DNA from: Loxodes magnus
Taxonomy: Eukaryota; Ciliophora; Karyorelictea; Loxodida; Loxodidae
DNA length: 64,000 nucleotides
Direction of reading: 5' to 3'
NCBI GenBank assembly: GCA_946699065.1
Contig: CAMPDV010000196.1
Span: 186,001 to 250,000, forward strand
Shown: positions 13,621 through 62,669 of the stretch, piece by piece
Numbering within the stretch: position 1 is the first letter of the stretch
How the letters are laid out: each line of letters starts with the position of its first letter
Notes under the pieces: generated by a model
Database searches by the model: none
What the model saw: only the letters and a program-made list of their open reading frames with translations
What the model was told of the DNA's origin: nothing
Made by a program: the position numbers and the translations under genes

Positions 13621-15937
13621 ATGAAAAGAGTTCTTAGATCTTATTAAGACCTTGCCTTCCAACTAAGCTTACATAAGAATATGGTTATATTACAACCTAC
13701 TGGATCTGGAAAAACACTAATAGCATTTCGCCTTATAAATCATTTTATCTAATAGCAGAACAAGCTAAATTTCTTAAACTACTATTACAAAATGAAGATT
13801 AACTCTCTTAAAAAGTGCATTCTATTAGCTCCAACTAAGCCTATAGCATTGTAACATTACTAAGAGATGGTTGAGGAGTATCCTGATTTGTCTATTATTC
13901 AGGCGATAGGTAAATTAAACTCTACTACAGTATAGAAAATATTAAGTAAGGAGTATCATGTAATTATAGGCACTCCTGGTGTTATAAGCAACTTAATTAA
14001 TAAATAAATACTCCCAAATGATATTTGTCTTGTAGTATTCGATGAAGTGCATCACGCTACCAAAAAGCATAAATACAATGACATAGCTAAACAGTTTCTT
14101 ATTTAGGATATTAGGATAATAGGACTTTCTGCATTTTTAGTCAAAAGAAATACTTCAACTTCATCTGCTGAAGGAGATGTCAAAAAATTGTTGCATAGTT
14201 TAAAAGCGATAAGTCTAAATCCTCCTTTAGAACTAATTCAGAATTTTAAGTCTAATCCAGATGAAATTTTAGTTGAAATCAGACGACAAAAAGAAAAAAC
14301 AGAGGAATATGTAGAGTAATTTGAAAGAGTACTAAAACAGTATTCTGAAAATGAAGAAAAATTTGATGAAATGAAAAGACTTTGCAAAAAATTAGGTCCT
14401 GACTACATTTAATACTTTTAGAACAAAGAGCAAAACGTTGAATTCAACTTTATCCAACTAAAATATTTATCAAGCATTGTAGATAAAATAATTAAGCTAG
14501 TTCTCTAGCATATTCAGACTCCAGAAGATAGAGGGATTATTTTTGTCAAAAGAATCAAACATGTCGAACATATGCAAATGCTACTGCAAGCTATCTTTGA
14601 TTAACTAGGTATATAAATTAAGGTTTAGAAAATAGTAGGATAAGCATCTATGAGGACAAGCGAAGTTAAATAAATTCTAACTTAATTTAAAAATGGAGAA
14701 ATTTAGCTTTTAGTAGCATCATCAGTAGCAGAAGAGGGAATTGATATACAATAATGTAACTTTATAATCGCCCAATTTAACTTAGAAACTGCAAGAAGGT
14801 ATATTCAAACAAAGGGAAGAGCTAGAAAATAGAATAGTAAATACTATGTTTTAGCAACTGTTAATCAGAAAGGATCAATTAAGTAAAAGAATTACTTAAA
14901 AATAAAGGAGCAGACAGAGCAATTTAAGTAAACTACTTGTATGAGTGTTCTTTACGATGCTTAATTTGATATCCAATTTAGGTACGAAAACTCATCTAAA
15001 GAGGTAAAAATTCCCCTAAATACATAAATATCCAAAGAGTAAATCGTTAATCTTAATCCTTTAATGCTAGAAAGATAAGCTTAAAACATTTTCTTTAGCT
15101 AAATTTTTGCATTTCAAGATCCCTAAAACTAAAGTTATTTATATCTATCAGAAAAAATTCCATAGACCTAAACACCTTACTTTTACAGCATGAAATTTAT
15201 GTAAAGTGTAACTATGGAAAATTAAAATCCAGAGATAGATAGCGACATGATGATATAGCTATCGGAAGATTAGTTTTAAGTACTAAAATAGTTTAACATA
15301 GTTATGAACTAATTTTTAGAATAACTAAATATCGCTTCTATCAAGGAATTTTACTATCCAAAATTCCACTCATGTGTTGTTCAAGTAGCAAATGAATTCG
15401 AGGAAGTTAGAAATCAATTAGGAATTCCAAATTTTCAAATGTAGTATGAGAAAGCTGTCCAATAAAGTTAGAACTTTAGTAATGAAGAGGGAGAATGAAG
15501 CTTCTACATAATCGACTGGTATTCGATCTGTCAAGTGATCACTTAACTCTAGTGTGAAATAAAAAATCTCTTACTTTCTATTTATCTAGAAAAACCTTTA
15601 AGCAACAAGGATTCTTTACTAGGAAGAGTTATTTTCAATATGAAGACTAAAAACTTCGAGCGAATTAAAGAAATAAGCGAGAATAAGCAAAGAATTAATA
15701 ACTAAGAAAAAGAGACTTGAATAGTTAAAACATTTGTGATGGATGAATTTACTCATTCATACGATTAGATTGTAACAATTTTTATTACAGAAAGCTAAGC
15801 AAATGAAGTATAAATAAGAAAATTATTTATAATATCCTTTCAATGTAGAATCTTCTCAGTAGTGCTTACTTTTACCTCTCAACTTCGATTTCTGGGGCGC
15901 ATTTATTCATTTATTGAAGTTTAACGATGCTTTTTGA
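13621..15937 (+). CDS. Dicer/RIG-I-type DExH RNA helicase
   Basis: The ATG at 13621 opens MKRVLRSYQDLAFQLSLHKN, a Q-motif-like start, followed by motif I (QPTGSGKT, about residue 25), motif II (DEVHH), a degenerate motif III (IGLSAF instead of SAT), a helical insert (residues ~215-280), motif V (VAEEGIDIQQCN) and motif VI (QTKGRARKQ). This order and the DExH box are those of Dicer/RIG-I/MDA5 helicases, which use ATP to move on double-stranded RNA. About 300 residues follow, with no recognisable RNase III motif (ExxGD) in the window. TGA codons at 15496 and 15718 are read as W. A 19-nt intron (GTAACAATTTTTATTACAG, 15772-15790) restores a good frame to TGA 15935-15937. Coding-like sequence persists to ~16130, so the 3' end is provisional. 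A role in small-RNA pathways is inference from family. Confidence 0.85.
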
Positions 15938-28823: not shown

Positions 28824-29681
28824 TCAAAATTTAGTTAGTTCTTTAATGTAACTTACTTTATCCTTCACTTTTTGAAGCTTATAACTAACACTATTTTAGT
28901 CACTTTACATATTCTACAACATTTGATTTCGAGAGTCTATCTACTTTGACATTTATAACTATAATGCAGCTTGCTCTTCTTACAACTATCTTTGGTATTC
29001 CTTTTTTAGTTCTTAAATTTGGTTTTAAAGCTTTTCTTCCTGCTTTTTTACTTCTTCTTCATTAGCTTTGATAATTTAATTCAATATCATTTAGTTTTTT
29101 TCTTTTAATGCTTTTAATTAGCCAGAGTAGTGATCATTAATATCCTTAGCTATTTAATTCTATTCCTTTTCAAGCTTTTCCTTTAGTTTCCATTTATAAG
29201 TATCAAGTTAGTTTTGATATTCTTGCTTAAGTTTGAATATATAAGCATCTCTTTCCAATTTAAGCTTCTCTTCTTCATTATCTAACTGTTTGTCTTGAAT
29301 TTATGGCTTTTCTTCATTACTTAGCTTTTCTAAATTTAGCAAGGGTATTTAGTATTTCTTTTTTCCCTCTTTTAGTTTCTTAGCTTGCTAAAACTTTTCC
29401 CTGAAATACCAATCGTAAGGATGCTCCCATTTTTTCTCTCCAGTTTAGAAATTCAGATAGTAAATTTCTCCAGACTTCGTTCGACATGGTTTCCACTAAT
29501 TAGGCAAAGCCATCTTCAATCCTTCCTTCGCAATGTAAAAATAGTCTTTATCCTTGAAAGGATCCATTCCAAGATAAGCTGCATATTCCTAGATTTCTTT
29601 GATTGTTGGAGAGTGATCAGGATCGTTAACTTCTTCCAAAACAGAAGAATCATTTTATCCGCTTATGTATTCTTATTCCAT
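28824..29681 (-). CDS. CEP164-like WW-domain coiled-coil protein (285 aa)
   Basis: ATG 29681 (MEQEYISGQNDSSVLEEVND) to TGA 28826-28824. Residues ~25-95 match the N-terminal CEP164 module: IKEIQEYAAYLGMDPFKDKD, YFYIAKEGLKMALPNQWKPC, then a WW domain, SGEIYYLNFQTGEKKWEHPYD. The remainder is an uninterrupted coiled coil rich in Lys, Glu and Gln. In animals the CEP164 WW domain sits at basal-body distal appendages and recruits TTBK2. This protein is much shorter than animal CEP164 and could be one of several CEP164-type WW proteins. A basal-body location is inferred from homology. It has no intron. Confidence 0.88.
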
Positions 29682-41740: not shown

Positions 41741-43015
<1,275 letters not shown>

Positions 43016-43419: not shown

Positions 43420-46400
43420 TCAAAGATCAGTTTTCATTTTCTCTTCTCCTTTAGTTTCACTACCTGTAACTTCTTCTCTGCTTTCTTGCCTAACTTCTTA
43501 AGTACTCTAAGACTATTCTATGCTTTCCTAAACGAATTTTTCTTGTAATCTTGCGATATTTTGGTCATAATAATCCCATTCTTTAATTGTCCTTCTAGCC
43601 ATATCTATTTTATGCTCCTTTGTTAGTGGTGAATTGCATAAATCGATAGATTTTGCTTTGTCTAAAGTTTCTATTGAGCACCATGTTTCACACCATAACC
43701 ATTCAATAGGTAAAGAATAAATAGGAACAGCACTTTGAGCATAATTGGGAAGATCCTAGTCTAAATTAGCTAAAGAGCCTTTGTCTTTAGAGAGTTGCTC
43801 ATAGTTCCAACGCAGAATATCTGCAAAGCCATAGTGTCTCAAGACTTTTAAGTCTACAACATATAAAGCACTAATGTGATAATTCAAGCTGCCTAAATGA
43901 TCTTTCCAATACCCCTATTTCCAGAATCTAAATCCTTCTGTGGCTTTATTAGAATCACAAAATGGAGTATATGCATAAGGCTTTCCTTCAAGATCCATGT
44001 CCCATAGTTCTTTTACATCAGTTCTGACGACTTAGTCTGCATCTATGTATATTATTTTCTCTACAGATACTGGGAATAAAACATCAAGGAAAAGAATCTT
44101 ATAACCCCAAATGATTCTCTACTTTTCAGTTTACTCTTATAGCCACCATGGCCATTTATAAGTGATTAGTTCATATTCAAAGTTAAGTTCTTTGCTGTAA
44201 TTGGGAAGGAAATTTTTCATTTTAGGACTCATGAAATTTTCTATTAACCAGAACTTTACTTTAGAGTTAGTATGATTCATCACAGAACTAATCATAATCC
44301 TAAGCAATCTTTCATATAAATGACCTGATGCTAAAGAAAAGATATGGATAGTTTCACCTCCTTGCGTAGTTATTCCGCTTATCTAATCTGCATCACCTAA
44401 GATGTTTTCATTTTCCATTCCTTCTCGCTTTTCTACCTACAAGAATAGTTAATCACCTATGAAATCCCATATTTCAATATTATTTGAACTCACTATTTAA
44501 TAGATTTCTTTGCTTTTTCCTATATGCAAATCTAGTTTCCACTCTCCAGGCCCTGCTTTAAGCTAGAAGTATCCACTTTACATGACAACAGTATCAGTTT
44601 TAAATTACTATTCCTCTAATTCTTATTACACTGTTATCTCCAAACCTTTTGGGGGATACCATTCAAAGGACTATTCTCCCTTTTGAGAATGTCTCAGTTC
44701 TGAGCAATCACCTTCTATCATTAGATGCTATAGATTATAAGTGATCTCAGTTGAAATGAACTTAGCAGGATTGATATTATCAGCATCTACTTCAGACCTA
44801 TTACTGTAAAATAGCCAATTATCAGGTACATGAAGTGCTAGTGTTCCTACTATCTAATAGTTAATTTAATATACAGACTCAGGTTATTTACTTAAGTCAT
44901 AACTAAAGACAGGCTAGTACCATCTTTTTATCACTTCATCATCAGGTATTTATTCTTCTGGGTTCATATAGAAGCATATATTAGGTTTTAAAGGCAGCGC
45001 TACTTTGATTATTGAAAATATTTATTAGCTTGAAGGTGATGCTGGATTGATGTAGGCTTGGAACTAAATAGGAGAGTTTTCATAGTTGTTGATGCAAATC
45101 TAAGTTAGCTATGACATGGCTTAAGTCTCAGGTGGAGGATAATGATTCTTAGTAAATGGCAATTCCTCTTCAAGCTTCTACTTTAGAACTCCTCTTACTT
45201 GCATGTAATAAGTAGCTTGAGATATTTTACTAAAGATGCTTTTTCCATCATTTGTCTCTCCTGCATTCTTTTCAAAATCAGACACTTCAAGTTTAGGGAA
45301 AATTTTAAAATTTTACTTCTGTTAGCCCATTCTTTATAAAATAGAGTTAGGATCACTAGGGTCAAATTAATCTTCATCATCCTCTTCGAATTCATAAGGT
45401 AGAGATAGTTTCTCTTCTAAATATAATGCTTCAAAGTCCCAAGGAGTTAGTTCGACATCAATATCATACTTCTTTCCATCCACAATGATAATGTTCCTAT
45501 TATAAATTTTCATTTTCATAGCTAAGTTTTACAAATAATCATCAGGTAAGCTTTGAGATTTTTAGTGTTGCCACTTTAGAATCTCTTTAAAGGGAGCGAA
45601 AACAGAATTGCATTGATTATCGTTTGGTATAATAAGCTAAAATCTGGTCAGTTCTCTGAATCTATAAATCTGCTTATTTAAATAGCTATTCAAGCTGGAT
45701 ATAATACTCTTTGCAATTGGTGATGAGCATCCATTACTTTAATCGATGCTTATAATGAAGGTTACATCTTAATCTCTATTTGGATTCAAGATTTGGTTGA
45801 AGTTTACACCTTCGTAAGCAAGTTTAGGATATAAGAAACTATTTTCCAAGAATGTATATTGAGATAGATCAATAAAAGAATATCTGTTCATAAAATTTGG
45901 GATGTTTCTATGAAGTTTGGAGTAGCTAGGTTTCATCTACCCCTCGGTAAGGAATTTACCAATGTCAATTGGATCTCTTAATATACCATAATATACCAAA
46001 CTCTAGAGCCATCTTAATTCCGTCAACAGATTGTTGTTTATCTACTATTGCAGTTTGAACTTCTTTTGTAACTTTAAATAATCGCCATTCAGTATCAAAG
46101 CTGTTTCATCGCAAAAGGCCATTTCTGAGCAAAAGCCAAGGAAATAATCTATGCTTGCTTCCTGCTATTAAGTTAATGTTAATTACTTAGCTTCACATGA
46201 AAAAACCCATGAAAATCCGTAGCATTATTTCTAGTATAACTGCTCAATTACTTCGATGCCCAGGTTAACTTTGGGTTCATAATTTGATAACATTTCATCA
46301 TTTTCATCAATTACTGAGCTTATGAGATTACTCAAAAATGCGAAGCTTCCTTCGTTTTATCTCAAATTATATAAAACTTTGTATAGCAACTTGATGAAAT

Positions 46401-47993
46401 CATTTTCCTTGTTTCTTATCTCTTCGTTTTTATTTTAAGAAAACAGAACGATAGAAAATCTTATTGGTGCGTTATTCTTATATAGCAGATATGCTTGTTT
46501 CATTGTAAGCCAAGTTTATACAGATGCAACATCTCCAATTACAGCTATATTATACAAATTTCTGCCAATGAATTTCAGAACAGCACCTTAGCCTCTTAAT
46601 AGCTCTAATAGCTCCTTTCTCCATCCTTTGTACATTTAATCCTTCTCCAAATCATTAAGTCAGAATATCTTTTAGTTATCAATCATAAAATGAGGATGAG
46701 ATATATGAATTTTTTCCTCATTTTTTCCTTACTTGTTTTACTACTTTTGCTACTACTACTGATCGAAGTAATAGAATTAGTTGATTTACTTTAATAACCT
46801 CAAACTTGCATCATGTGTTAACTAAGTCTTACGCAGTTAATTGTAATAATTATTCTATAATAAAACTGCTTACCTCTTAAGTTATCTCGTCAAGGAATTA
46901 GAAATAGTTAAACTGGCTTATTGAAATGGGCTTATGGTTTCAGAAGAGCATGCTTTTTCCTTGTTGCATATAATACACTTCTCGGTTTGCCTAAACTGCT
47001 TCTACGAACTCCTCGTCAACATTGATTTGGTCTATTTCGTTCATATATTCTGGATAGTTCAAGTTCATGTTGATAATATTCTCTATTTCCTATGCTTTGT
47101 TTTCAGCTTCAATCAACCTCTTAACTATGTATTAGCTTGTCTAAAGGCTAAGGTTAGTTTTATTACTAGGAATTTTCAGTTACTCCAACTCCTTTTGTAT
47201 AACCTCTTAATCCCATGCTTTGAATTCAGTGCTTCTAATTGCTATTTCTGTAAAGTACCCTCCAACTTTACAAAAGCCTTATGATAATGACCTGACTGAG
47301 TGTCTGAAAATATACTAGAACTGGTTTTGAGCAGCTTTCTCTTTTAAAGTTTTGTGCCATTACCTAATGATTGAGTTAGAGTCTTAAAGGTATGAGTAAA
47401 ATATGACAGAAATAGGCTTTTTTTGATATAAGCTGCTTGGATGGTATATTTTATCAGTCTTTTTTTTGGTGAAATAAGAAGGCTATTATTTAATATCTTC
47501 GACTAGGTAGAATTTGTCATCCTGGAAGAACTGATTTTCTTATAAATAGCTAAGCATTTCTTAAGGATCACAGAAGAACTTGTTTACATAAGGAATTTCA
47601 ATCCAGTCTTACTAACAGTTAACTCCATAAACCTACTTCTGCTTTTGTTCCAATTGCCTACTAGCTTCGATTCTAGGTAAGAACCTGTGGTTGAATAGAG
47701 ATACTTTGAAAATTTACTTTTCCACATCAGATTCTATAAGCTAAGTAAGTAACTCTAAGTGGCTTTCCTATAGAACATTATTGATACTATGCTCATTGAT
47801 CAGATCGAGGAATTTCCAGAAAAGCTAATCATCATTTTTAGAATGAGCGAAAAACTCGCTGAATAATAAGATCTTACCTAGCTTCGAGTAAGCTATTCCC
47901 ACATACATTTCAAGGAGCCTCAAGATTGATTTAAATCTGAGAGCAATAACTCTGAATAATAATAAGCAGGATAATTGAGATAATGCTCTTCAT
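43420..47993 (-). CDS. UGGT: UDP-glucose:glycoprotein glucosyltransferase (1,511 aa)
   Basis: ATG 47993 gives a signal peptide ([17 protein letters not shown]) and the mature start QIQINLEAPW typical of UGGT. Two 19-nt introns must be removed: GTAAGATCTTATTATTCAG (47877-47859) and GTAAGCAGTTTTATTATAG (46873-46855). The long folding-sensor part holds thioredoxin-like repeats ([34 protein letters not shown]). The C-terminal GT24 domain is very clear: [40 protein letters not shown], the DAD metal site (IYIDADQVVRTD), [30 protein letters not shown] and [13 protein letters not shown] re-glucosylates misfolded N-glycoproteins in the ER lumen. The protein ends in KTDL before TGA 43422-43420, close to a KDEL-type retention signal. 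Tryptophan TGA codons occur only in the N-terminal part. Confidence 0.97.
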
Positions 47994-54332: not shown

Positions 54333-56108
54333 ATGTAATCAGATGAAATTAACTCTCTTGCAGAATATCTGAGTTCTCAGTCTAAAATAGAATCCAAAAT
54401 AACTGCTAACTATAAAAGCATTAGTCAGATTGGAGAAGTAGGTCCTATTTATTATACTAGCATCAAAAAAATCCATCTTAGTCATAATAAAATCAAAAGC
54501 TTAAAAGGAATTGAGGTATTTCAAAGCTTGACTCATTTTTCAGTTGGACATAACTGCATTGAAGATATATCGGAGTTTGGGTATATAAACGATACTTTGT
54601 AGTTCTTAATGATCGAGGGTAATCCTGTTAGTAGGCATCCTAATTTAATTCCCTATTTGCTTGATTTGTTCCCAGTTTTACAAATGATAGACTAAACTAA
54701 AATCACAACCTAGATTAAAGAAAGTATTAGAGATTCCTATAAGCTAAGCAAAATCCTAATACCCTTCATCTATATAACTGAAAAAGTCATAGAGTCAGGA
54801 TAAGCAATTAACTTAAGACCTTTGTTCGATAAATGTTTCTAGAAGGAGTATGGAACTAGCTAATTTGTTGAGTTCATCCTTTAGTCTTCACGTCAGATTT
54901 AATACTAATTAGAGCATTATGACTAACAGACGTTGATATAGATTCACATCAATATGTTCATGCAAATATGCAAACTAATAACCCACGATTTAAAAGACTA
55001 GTCCTTCATTAAGTTTCTACAGATGAAATGCATTAATAATTTTAAAGACCCTAGTGATGTTAATAACCTGATGTACGAGTTCTATAACCTTGACTATCCT
55101 AAATACGAGTAAAATAGCTTATTAGGAAGCTAAGGAACACCTAAAACTCCTTTCCATACCTTTTTATGTAGAGATGTGGATAACTTTCCTCAATCTGATA
55201 TGTATCAAAGTAGTGAGTTTTAAGATCTGAATATTTCGTTAGAGGAATATCCTATATTTGGGTGTCAATTGAACTATATGAAAGCTTTATAACTATATAT
55301 ATCTAATCAGCTGCAAAAACTCTATAATATAAGATCGTTTTCTCAGTCTAAAAGAAAGCAGAACAAAGAAGAAAGCAAGTAAGTGATTGAAGAGACAAGC
55401 TGAAATACTTTTGAGGACCAAAAAGATAAAAATCCTTGAGAGTTTAGTTTAGGTAATGAAGAGGCTGGCTAATGAATATAATAATCTGGCAGGAATGAAA
55501 ACCAATAGATATAAGAAACGCACAAATAAGTAACGCTAAGATATTCACCATTTGAATAAGACCATTAAACTCTCCTAAAGTTCTTTTCTGTCTGAAAAGG
55601 ATATATAAATCAAGTGCTAGCCTAGAAATAGTGTCTTCAAATAGTCTTAGAACATAATCAGCAAAATGATTAAGTATGGAAGAAAAAATACCTGAAAAGA
55701 TGATACAACAATATGTACACAATAAACTATAAAGCGAAGGTATTTAAGAACCAAATGATTATATTGAGAGCTTTTAGAAATTGAAAGAGGGATTTTATAA
55801 GTAAGAGATAATAAATAATATAATAGCAGATACAAAAAAGATAGTAAAAAAAGGTTCAAAATCATTTCAACTCCTTTTCGTACTATTTTATTAGGAACTA
55901 GTTAAGAAAGTGCTTTGGAGGATGGAAGAAAGTAATTAAAATGAAGAGACAATTTACATCAAAGGCAATGAAAGCATAGAATATTTTAAGTAAAATAGAA
56001 GAGAGTGAAAAGAAGTTAGATGCTTTGTTTAAAGCAGTTCTTTCATAACCTAAGGAAAGTGTGTATAAGAAACCAAGCCTGCAAAAATGCTCAACTTGTA
56101 ATCATTGA
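54333..56108 (+). CDS. LRR plus Sfi1-like centrosomal protein (591 aa)
   Basis: ATG 54333 (MQSDEINSLAEYLSSQSKIE) to TGA 56106-56108. Residues ~40-130 form an LRR/LRRCT module of the SDS22-like type: IKKIHLSHNKIKSLKGIEVF, FSVGHNCIEDISEFG, FLMIEGNPVSRHPN and LLDLFPVLQMID. The C-terminal third has spaced Trp/Phe helices like Sfi1 centrin-binding repeats (LKFFSVWKGYINQVL, KKYLKRWYNNMY, ILRAFRNWKRDF, CFGGWKKVIKMKRQF). Six tryptophans there and just before are TGA, and the last lies ~320 nt before the stop. The combination suggests a basal-body/centrosome protein that binds centrin (inference). A T13-14 run immediately follows the stop codon. Confidence 0.88.
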
Positions 56109-57008: not shown

Positions 57009-58639
<1,631 letters not shown>

Positions 58640-60224: not shown

Positions 60225-62669
60225 TCACTCATTCTGTCCCATTTCAAATACTGCTTTATGATGTCCTGATACTTCTGGTAACATCATCACTTAGTTATAC
60301 CATTCTGTCACGTTATTGAACTCAGAATAATCAAACTTCACTAGGTTTAGTTATGCTAGATAGCAAGCTCCGTGTATATCACCTATTGAAAGCTCTCCGC
60401 CTGTTAAAAATCCACCGTTTTCTCCTAATACTTTTTCTAAATATGTCATAGCTGTTTTAAGATTCTTTTTAGCTTCTTCGGATACTTTTGGATCTACTTA
60501 TTTATTTTACATGGGATTGAAAAATTCGTTTAAAACTAACTTGGAGACCCATTATACAAAACCTGTCGCTTACCATGAAAAGTACCTATCTAATAAAGCA
60601 CGTTTATGGACATCTGAAGGATACCAATGGTCAGCTACTTTTCTCGTTGTGCTTAAGTAGATTAGTATTGCTATACTTTCACTCAGCAAGAAATCGGCAT
60701 CTTTAATAGCAGGAACTTATCCAGCTGGATTTATCTCTAAATAATCTGGTTATTTATGCTCTCCTTTTAGCAAATCAATTTCTTAAATTGTATGATCAAT
60801 TTGTGCTAGACCGGCAAAAGAAGCCACAGCTCTTGAAGGAGGAGAAAGTGGATTGTAGTAAATAGTCAAAGGTCCAAGTTAAATTTCTGCTTCACTTTCA
60901 GACTCTTCAGCTTCATCTTCTTTATCCTGAGCTTTCATATCAGGTCTTACACCATCTTCAATATTCTAGCCAATAGCTTCAAAGAAATCATGTTCTAGCT
61001 TTCTTAATTTTTCATCCATTGCTTTTTATTTAGCCTATGCGTTCTATTGTCCATCTTCTTTCCTAGCTGACTTTTACTAAGCTTGTCTTTTAGCAACCTA
61101 TAAATTCTTTTCTCTGTTCTATTCTCTTTCGAACATTTAATGAATTGAAACCTTTTCGTTTGTCTATGGTTAATATAAACTATCACATAACTCCATCAAT
61201 GTAACTGTACCTTCTGCATCTCCTACTGCAACTAAAGAACCAAAAGCAGGAGCGGTTGGTATATTTTGAACTTAGATTGAAGTGAGAGCTGCATCACCTA
61301 CTTTGTGATTATAAGCGACTTCATTTTATCTATAATGGTAATCCCATACATCCAACCATCCATCCATTCTTGTAAGGAAAAAAACTCCAGGTCTTGTTGG
61401 AGACCAGCATCCGTCTGTAAGATATGAGTCATGATATTTAGTTAACATTATAGGAGTCCTTATATCTTCCTACCAGATTCTTGCTGTCCAGTCTCCTACC
61501 GTTAAAAAGAACTTAAGTTCAGTCGGATTACGTTAAATTGCATAAATTGGTCCATGATGTTTACCTCCTTCTTATCCAAATCTGGATTATATTTCAACTG
61601 ATTTTTTAGGCTTTTTATTAGCTAAAACAATATATCCTTGTTCCGTACCTATTAAATACCTGGTTGGTCCTGCTTCACTATTGTATTCCAAGCATGTGGC
61701 TCCCCATATTTTTTCTTCTTATCCTTCATTTTGCTTTCCTTCTTTTAATAAAAGAGTATCAGTTGGATCCTATAGCTTTCTAGTGTCCCACCATAAAATT
61801 CGACCATCTGTTGAGCAGCTAGCACATTCTGTTCCAGTTTTTCCTGAAAGCCAGTAAATATCGTATACAGGATCATGATGAGATTTTTCAATCTAAGTTT
61901 ACTGTAATGGAGTGTTGCAATTTTTCCTAAGATCCCAAAGGGCAATGAGCCCATTATAGCAGCCACCAATAATAACATCAGAACTTTTGTTATTAAAGAC
62001 TAGAGTACATAGAGGTGACTAACCTTTAATTACTTAATCTGGTGTATTTGGTTATGTTTTGTCCCAAATATAAGACTGTAAAGCCATTTTTTCTGGCATC
62101 TATTAGAATCTTAGAATAGCATAGGCCACAGCAATTTTATTCGAGGAGGACTCAGGGTGCCAAGATATTTTGCACACACTTCTTTTAAGTTCTGCAGGGT
62201 CCTTAAATAACATTAGAGTTTTTGTGCTTAAATTTTCTGTACTATAATCTGGCGTTTCTCCTTAAAAGTATTCTTCAAACATATCTATTTGATTGTTTTA
62301 CATAACACAAGTTTCTGTCAATTTGCAAAGCTCTTTGACAGCTGGAGCAAAATTTTGCTCTTTGTCCTATTTTTTTCTCCATTTCGCGGTTTCTTATGCT
62401 TCTGAATAGTCAATTTCTTTAGGCCAACCTCCTTCTATATGTCTCATTCCTTTTGAAACAGCTACAACACGTTCAGTGTTTACAGCATGTTCTGACATTT
62501 CTTGCTGATTATCTAAAGCAATAGTGGTAGGATTTTACAGAACGAACGCATCTTTTTTCTTTTCCTCTTATGTTATTGAAGCCAAAATTTTTAGTTCGCC
62601 GTCTTCAAATCTCGGTGTTTTACCGAATTCCTTTCGTTTACGGTTATAAGGGTACATAAACTCTGCCAT
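60225..62669 (-). CDS. DNAI2: Outer-arm dynein intermediate chain (DNAI2) fused to glutathione S-transferase, 814 aa
   Basis: ATG 62669 ([20 protein letters not shown]) to TGA 60227-60225, one frame, no intron. Residues 1-~597 follow DNAI2/IC2: [35 protein letters not shown], a WD40 propeller ([70 protein letters not shown]), and a tail with MFERE and [12 protein letters not shown], where DNAI2 normally ends soon after. Here an acidic linker leads straight into a GST from about residue 598 ([20 protein letters not shown]). The GST has the catalytic-serine region, [21 protein letters not shown] and an all-helical C-domain ([18 protein letters not shown]). Only a glutamine TAA at 60881-60879 lies at the junction. 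IC2 anchors outer dynein arms; a GST tail would place a glutathione-binding fold on the axoneme (inference). Confidence 0.93.

Follow-up and report, generated by a model that had tools for sequence, protein, structure and literature searches.

A predicted gene-level fusion of the outer-arm dynein chain DNAI2 to a theta-like glutathione S-transferase in the karyorelict ciliate Loxodes magnus

We describe a single open frame in Loxodes magnus that is predicted to join the outer-arm dynein intermediate chain DNAI2 to a complete glutathione S-transferase (GST). As read from the sequence, this gene-level fusion in a genome with a karyorelict-type code (table 27) is well supported by homology, codon usage, stop context, base composition, the use of TGA for tryptophan in a neighbouring gene and the size of introns. 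The gene probably encodes an outer-arm DNAI2 with a C-terminal theta-like GST that acts locally on glutathione at the motor. The GSTs so far known from cilia of sea urchin, human and Chlamydomonas are separate proteins, and redox state affects outer-arm dynein. If our reading is true, the attachment of a GST to a core subunit of the outer arm would directly demonstrate the link between the two, with a fixed place and stoichiometry, and would seat an enzyme of redox control or detoxification on the ciliary motor itself. A natural fusion also makes the link between GST and outer arm testable in one organism.

Results

One open frame spans a dynein chain and a GST

The window analysed here is the whole 64-kb stretch of L. 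magnus DNA. On its minus strand, positions 62669..60225 form one open frame of 814 codons under tables 6 and 27, ending in TGA. Its features are as follows:

60225..62669, minus strand: complete frame of the fusion, 814 codons and a TGA, for a product of about 93 kDa
60963..62669, minus strand: DNAI2/IC2 part, residues 1-569, matching Tetrahymena DIC3 in the PDB (6.4e-189)
60966..61157, minus strand: helix predicted at the C-terminal end of DNAI2 (residues 505-568) by the full-length AlphaFold model (DNAI2 rows only)
60876..60965, minus strand: acidic linker, residues 569-598, with 12 D/E and 3 K/R, pLDDT below 50 in the full-length model
60879..60881, minus strand: TAA read as Gln, codon 597, from the codon reading
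60936..60938, minus strand: ATG in frame at codon 578, from which a GST alone might start
60651..60872, minus strand: GST N-terminal (thioredoxin-fold) domain, residues 600-673, Pfam PF02798
60843..60845, minus strand: Ser609, which in alignments falls on the first Ser of LSQP in human GSTT1
60276..60524, minus strand: GST C-terminal helical domain, residues 716-798, from Pfam PF00043 and the model of the GST alone
60225..60227, minus strand: TGA stop, the next 60 nt having 18.3% GC
60932..60950, minus strand: 19-nt GT..AG pair whose splicing would bring a TGA into frame ahead of the GST

A sequence-only reading of this DNA had proposed a DNAI2 and a complete GST in one continuous frame, and this is borne out by Pfam, the PDB matches and the 814-codon frame. 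It had carried DNAI2 up to about residue 597; homology actually stops near residue 569, and the linker follows at 569-598. The glutamine TAA that it saw at the junction is indeed codon 597 (60881-60879) and, as it stated, the junction is free of TGA, the sole in-frame TGA being the end of the gene. Its further statement that no ATG-led restart lies there needs a small correction, as an in-frame ATG precedes the GST at codon 578.

The dynein half matches DNAI2

Residues 1-569 align from the first Met with Tetrahymena DIC3 (6zyw_E), with an E-value of 6.4e-189 in a PDB sequence search. DNAI2-type chains range in this search from 6.4e-189 to 7.2e-118, whereas the best chain of another type, IC140, reaches 1.8e-37 and DNAI1-type chains reach 1.3e-29. 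Judged by these matches, the dynein half is DNAI2 among the dynein intermediate chains. Identity to 26 aligned DNAI2 relatives is 45-61%, and the 11-residue tail of the DNAI2 family is there as well, which makes the dynein part complete. Pfam returned only WD40-propeller matches on this half, all under the cut-off, as it did for 10 other DNAI2 relatives that were scanned. Aligning DNAI2 and GST relatives together misplaced the GST rows, so that the full-length AlphaFold model was restricted to DNAI2 rows (mean pLDDT 67); the WD40 propeller and the helix at 505-568 are seen in this model, and its GST portion is not usable.

The GST half resembles theta-class enzymes

Pfam recognizes GST_N at residues 600-673 (E 3.5e-11, 43.7 bits against a cut-off of 20.9) and GST_C at residues 716-798 (E 6e-7, 30.1 bits against a cut-off of 20.7). 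When the PDB was searched with the whole fusion, human theta GSTs matched from residue 601 to 766 or 773 (1.5e-28 and 1.9e-27). With the GST part alone as query, human theta GSTs were the best solved sequences (E 1.4e-29) and delta-class GSTs came just behind. Residues ~599-814, modelled alone with AlphaFold from 10 sequences, gave a pLDDT of 94.1 and a pTM of 0.90, and the top Foldseek match of this model was human GSTT1 (TM 0.89, rmsd 1.8, 30% identity). Pfam, the model and Foldseek agree that the thioredoxin-fold N domain and the all-helical C domain are both present. The GST half is predicted to be a complete, Ser-type, theta-like cytosolic GST, with good matches to the delta class as well.

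Ser609 has its counterpart in human GSTT1 in the leading Ser of LSQP, taken to be the catalytic Ser of that enzyme, and Ser609, Pro653 and Glu664-Ser665 are presumably positions of the glutathione site. The Ser, the Pro and the second Ser of this putative site are invariant across the 10 aligned sequences. In Tetrahymena, the motif SQPSR is reported as typical of theta GSTs (PMC11925944); the Loxodes protein reads SPPSR at this position, which keeps the Ser and has one difference, and delta-class GSTs also match well. Theta GSTs are reported in 94.7% of the ciliates covered by the same survey, and those of Tetrahymena have almost no introns (PMC11925944), which makes it easy to envisage a donor gene. 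A search with only the GST part found 18 relatives among 207 candidates, the best at 44% identity over 92%.

The window uses the karyorelict code and holds very short introns

A TTLL6-like neighbour, running downwards from 42880, matches solved TTLL6 (E 3.2e-44) across in-frame TGA codons. Among the eight Trp codons in its first 345 codons (41861-42880, minus strand), five are TGA, including the codon for the conserved W of PWLLE, and three are TGG, versus 0 TGA and 18 TGG in the fusion (60225-62669, minus strand; Fisher p 0.0009); the ambiguous TGA codon is perhaps avoided in some genes. Residues 1-560 of the fusion contain 31 TAA/TAG codons. The karyorelict code, table 27 (TAA/TAG as Gln, TGA as Trp or stop), applies, as established by TAA/TAG within the fusion, TGA as Trp in the TTLL gene and the terminal TGA with its AT-rich flank. 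Code 6, where TGA is a stop only, was ruled out by the tryptophan TGAs of the TTLL neighbour, despite the exclusive use of TGG in the fusion.

Two genes of the window contain introns supported by homology. Removing 17 nt (57543-57527) from a DEAD-box helicase gene (57182-58639, minus strand) restores Helicase_C with 118 bits. In a gene for UDP-glucose:glycoprotein glucosyltransferase (UGGT; 43420-47908, minus strand), removal of a 19-nt intron (46873-46855) lifts the Thioredoxin_13 score from 47.7 bits to 54.5 bits and connects this domain to Thioredoxin_14. The UGGT gene also has in-frame TGAs, one within KIF(TGA)LNDLEKD; a PDB search with a piece of UGGT gave no match. The two lengths fit those published for L. 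magnus introns, with a mode of 17 and a mean of 19.3 bp (PMC11441545). The strict motif GTAA..TTTTATT..AG, a form derived from the introns already seen, has five matches against 1.0 expected, a count reached in 0 of 100 shuffles, and a looser motif is not enriched (15 versus 11.0 expected).

Elsewhere in the window, 13621-15498 (plus strand) encodes a helicase with DEAD/ResIII and Helicase_C domains, which by eye we take to be like Dicer- or RIG-I-like helicases. A coiled-coil-like protein with one WW domain lies at 28824-29681 (minus strand); we presume that it may be CEP164-like, possibly a further cilium or centriole gene. A leucine-rich repeat protein at 54333-55403 (plus strand) has a weak Pfam LRR_4 match. 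No rRNA or tRNA was reported within the 64-kb window.

Coding signals run on through the junction

Codon scores were computed with a table trained on residues 1-540 of the dynein half. The linker (565-600) scores +0.514 per codon in the fusion frame versus -0.335 and -0.451 in the other frames, and the GST scores +0.149 in frame versus -0.316 and -0.268, while the 3' flank gives -0.29 to -0.33 over the three frames. The linker has 36.4% GC and the 60 nt past the final TGA 18.3%, next to reported Loxodes values of 33.5% for coding sequence and 18.6% for 3'-UTRs (PMC11441545); since GC varies along the gene (0.25-0.41 in 99-nt windows), the GC argument taken alone is moderate. The last TAA lies 22 codons ahead of the final TGA and Gln812 is CAG, as expected from the reported depletion of coding UGA and UAA over the ~20 codons ahead of Loxodes stops (PMC11441545). 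The shared frame, the homology of the domains and the codon usage across both halves and the linker make a chance joining of unrelated frames very unlikely. Two ordinary genes that seem joined since TAA does not act as a stop are also very unlikely, being disfavoured by codon usage, by GC and by the lack of an AT-rich gap. Two AT-rich 17-nt candidates, at 62301-62285 and 60510-60494, were not accepted as introns, since homology runs on in one frame across each of them.

Two other accounts of the locus bear on the junction. It is improbable that the locus makes two products, a processed DNAI2 without the GST and/or a GST started at the ATG of codon 578, with the fusion itself minor or unused. 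This account draws on that ATG and on five GT..AG pairs of 17-26 nt (GC 37-47%) that start and end in the linker region and make an intron possible on sequence grounds; splicing at three of them (17, 19 and 26 nt) would change the frame such that a TGA comes ahead of the GST. The earlier claim that the junction is free of introns is weakened by these pairs. However, the linker scores well as coding sequence when read in the fusion frame, and the five pairs lack the GTAA..TTTTATT..AG form of the homology-supported introns, which have 24% and 26% GC, a form resting on two introns, one of which has possible alternative AG ends. An artefact of assembly or sequencing, by misjoined genes or an indel masking a TGA, is more improbable still. 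In its favour, off-frame TGAs are frequent in the linker (one and six in the two other frames, none in the fusion frame), and TAG accounts for 12 of the 31 TAA/TAG Gln codons in residues 1-560 but for 0 of the 9 in the GST (Fisher p 0.037), which hints weakly that the halves differ in history. Yet frame, codon usage and GC are continuous through the junction, there is no AT-rich gap and the GST's own beginning lacks a start codon, whereas neighbouring frames in the window are separated by gaps of 98 nt (18% GC) and 209 nt (26% GC).

No second example among the sequences and literature searched

The GST family was found in none of the 120 DNAI2 relatives among the matches listed (1,298 were found), and a Pfam rescan of 10 DNAI2 relatives detected a GST domain in 0 of 10. 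When residues 590-814 were searched among proteins of 448-1,424 aa, none of the 1,041 candidates matched. Viral and prokaryotic contigs gave no relative, as expected for a ciliate gene. This absence elsewhere is weak evidence, since collections may lack karyorelict genes, which have to be read with table 27, or contain them in broken form. The literature searched did not yield a DNAI2-GST fusion, in agreement with the sequence-only reading, which knew of none; in its main text, the survey of ciliate GSTs (PMC11925944) mentions neither fusion, dynein, Loxodes, karyorelict nor multidomain. Within the searches made, the DNAI2-GST fusion is undescribed, and it varies the composition of the outer-arm dynein without amounting to a new kind of system.

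Discussion

A glutathione enzyme on the motor?

If the frame is expressed as one protein, its DNAI2 part would assemble into the outer arm as usual, and the C-terminal helix together with the ~30-residue acidic linker would tether the GST to the tail complex of the arm. Provided that it is catalytic, the tethered GST could use glutathione locally, in peroxide reduction, electrophile conjugation and perhaps thiol regulation. Such local chemistry may protect or tune the motor, with a possible effect on beating, as a covalent version of free ciliary GSTs. A covalent, local glutathione or redox function appears most likely because free ciliary GSTs affect motility and outer arms carry thioredoxin modules. 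Among the functions suggested earlier (dimer scaffold, redox sensing, detoxification), studies of GSTs in cilia (PMC3812683, PMC11385084) make redox/detoxification the most plausible. Against it stand the lack of a second fusion example among the sequences searched and the fact that the ciliary GSTs studied are reported as separate proteins (PMC11385084). A bolder proposal, that every outer arm bears its own glutathione enzyme, which would sense or set redox state and tune the beat, for example in oxygen-gradient steering, seems quite unlikely.

The main rival, which we consider unlikely, takes the fusion as real and the GST as structural, pairing neighbouring arms or binding a partner, with catalysis immaterial. 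GSTs commonly dimerise, eEF1B-gamma has a GST domain in which catalysis does not matter, and the GST fold is complete in our model. Tetrahymena IC3, the DNAI2 homologue, is moreover reported to contribute to the interface at which adjacent arms meet tail to head (PMC8500839). However, the protein keeps the Ser, the VP-motif Pro and the ES positions, as an active enzyme would be expected to, and local action on glutathione is the reading that we prefer.

Comparison with known systems

The Loxodes protein is like DNAI2/IC2 (Chlamydomonas IC69, Tetrahymena DIC3/IC3) from the first Met to about residue 569, with the WD40 propeller and the C-terminal helix. It differs beyond this point, where 15 relatives end in short, acidic or proline-rich tails while the Loxodes protein continues into a GST.

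Free GSTs in cilia offer a second comparison. In sea urchin, a theta GST is reported as abundant in apical-tuft cilia, where a GST inhibitor increases bending (Jin et al. 2013, PMC3812683); lateral motile cilia contain it in traces only, and the inhibitor left their beat frequency unchanged (PMC3812683). What links this case to ours is the theta-type GST, which in these cilia seems to influence bending, but the reported enzyme is a separate 219-aa protein, found mainly in the less motile tuft and not covalently held on dynein. GSTA2 is reported in human motile cilia, and losing GSTA2 or a Chlamydomonas GST slows beating (PMC11385084). Here too, a GST resides in motile cilia and normal beating needs it, but GSTA2 is of the alpha class and a separate protein, and in Chlamydomonas the GST is described as largely in the matrix (PMC11385084).

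The thioredoxin modules of the outer arm offer a third comparison. Outer arms are reported to be redox-sensitive and to carry the thioredoxin-like LC3, and animal NME8/IC1 has a thioredoxin domain (PMC10886578, PMC8754002). The modules LC3/LC5/LC3BL and NME8 (sea urchin IC1) likewise place a thioredoxin-fold redox module in the outer arm, and in NME8/IC1 the module is part of a protein classed among the intermediate chains (PMC8754002, PMC10886578). In Loxodes, in contrast to these reported modules, the predicted module is a GST rather than a CxxC thioredoxin and is carried at the C-terminus of the WD40 chain DNAI2.
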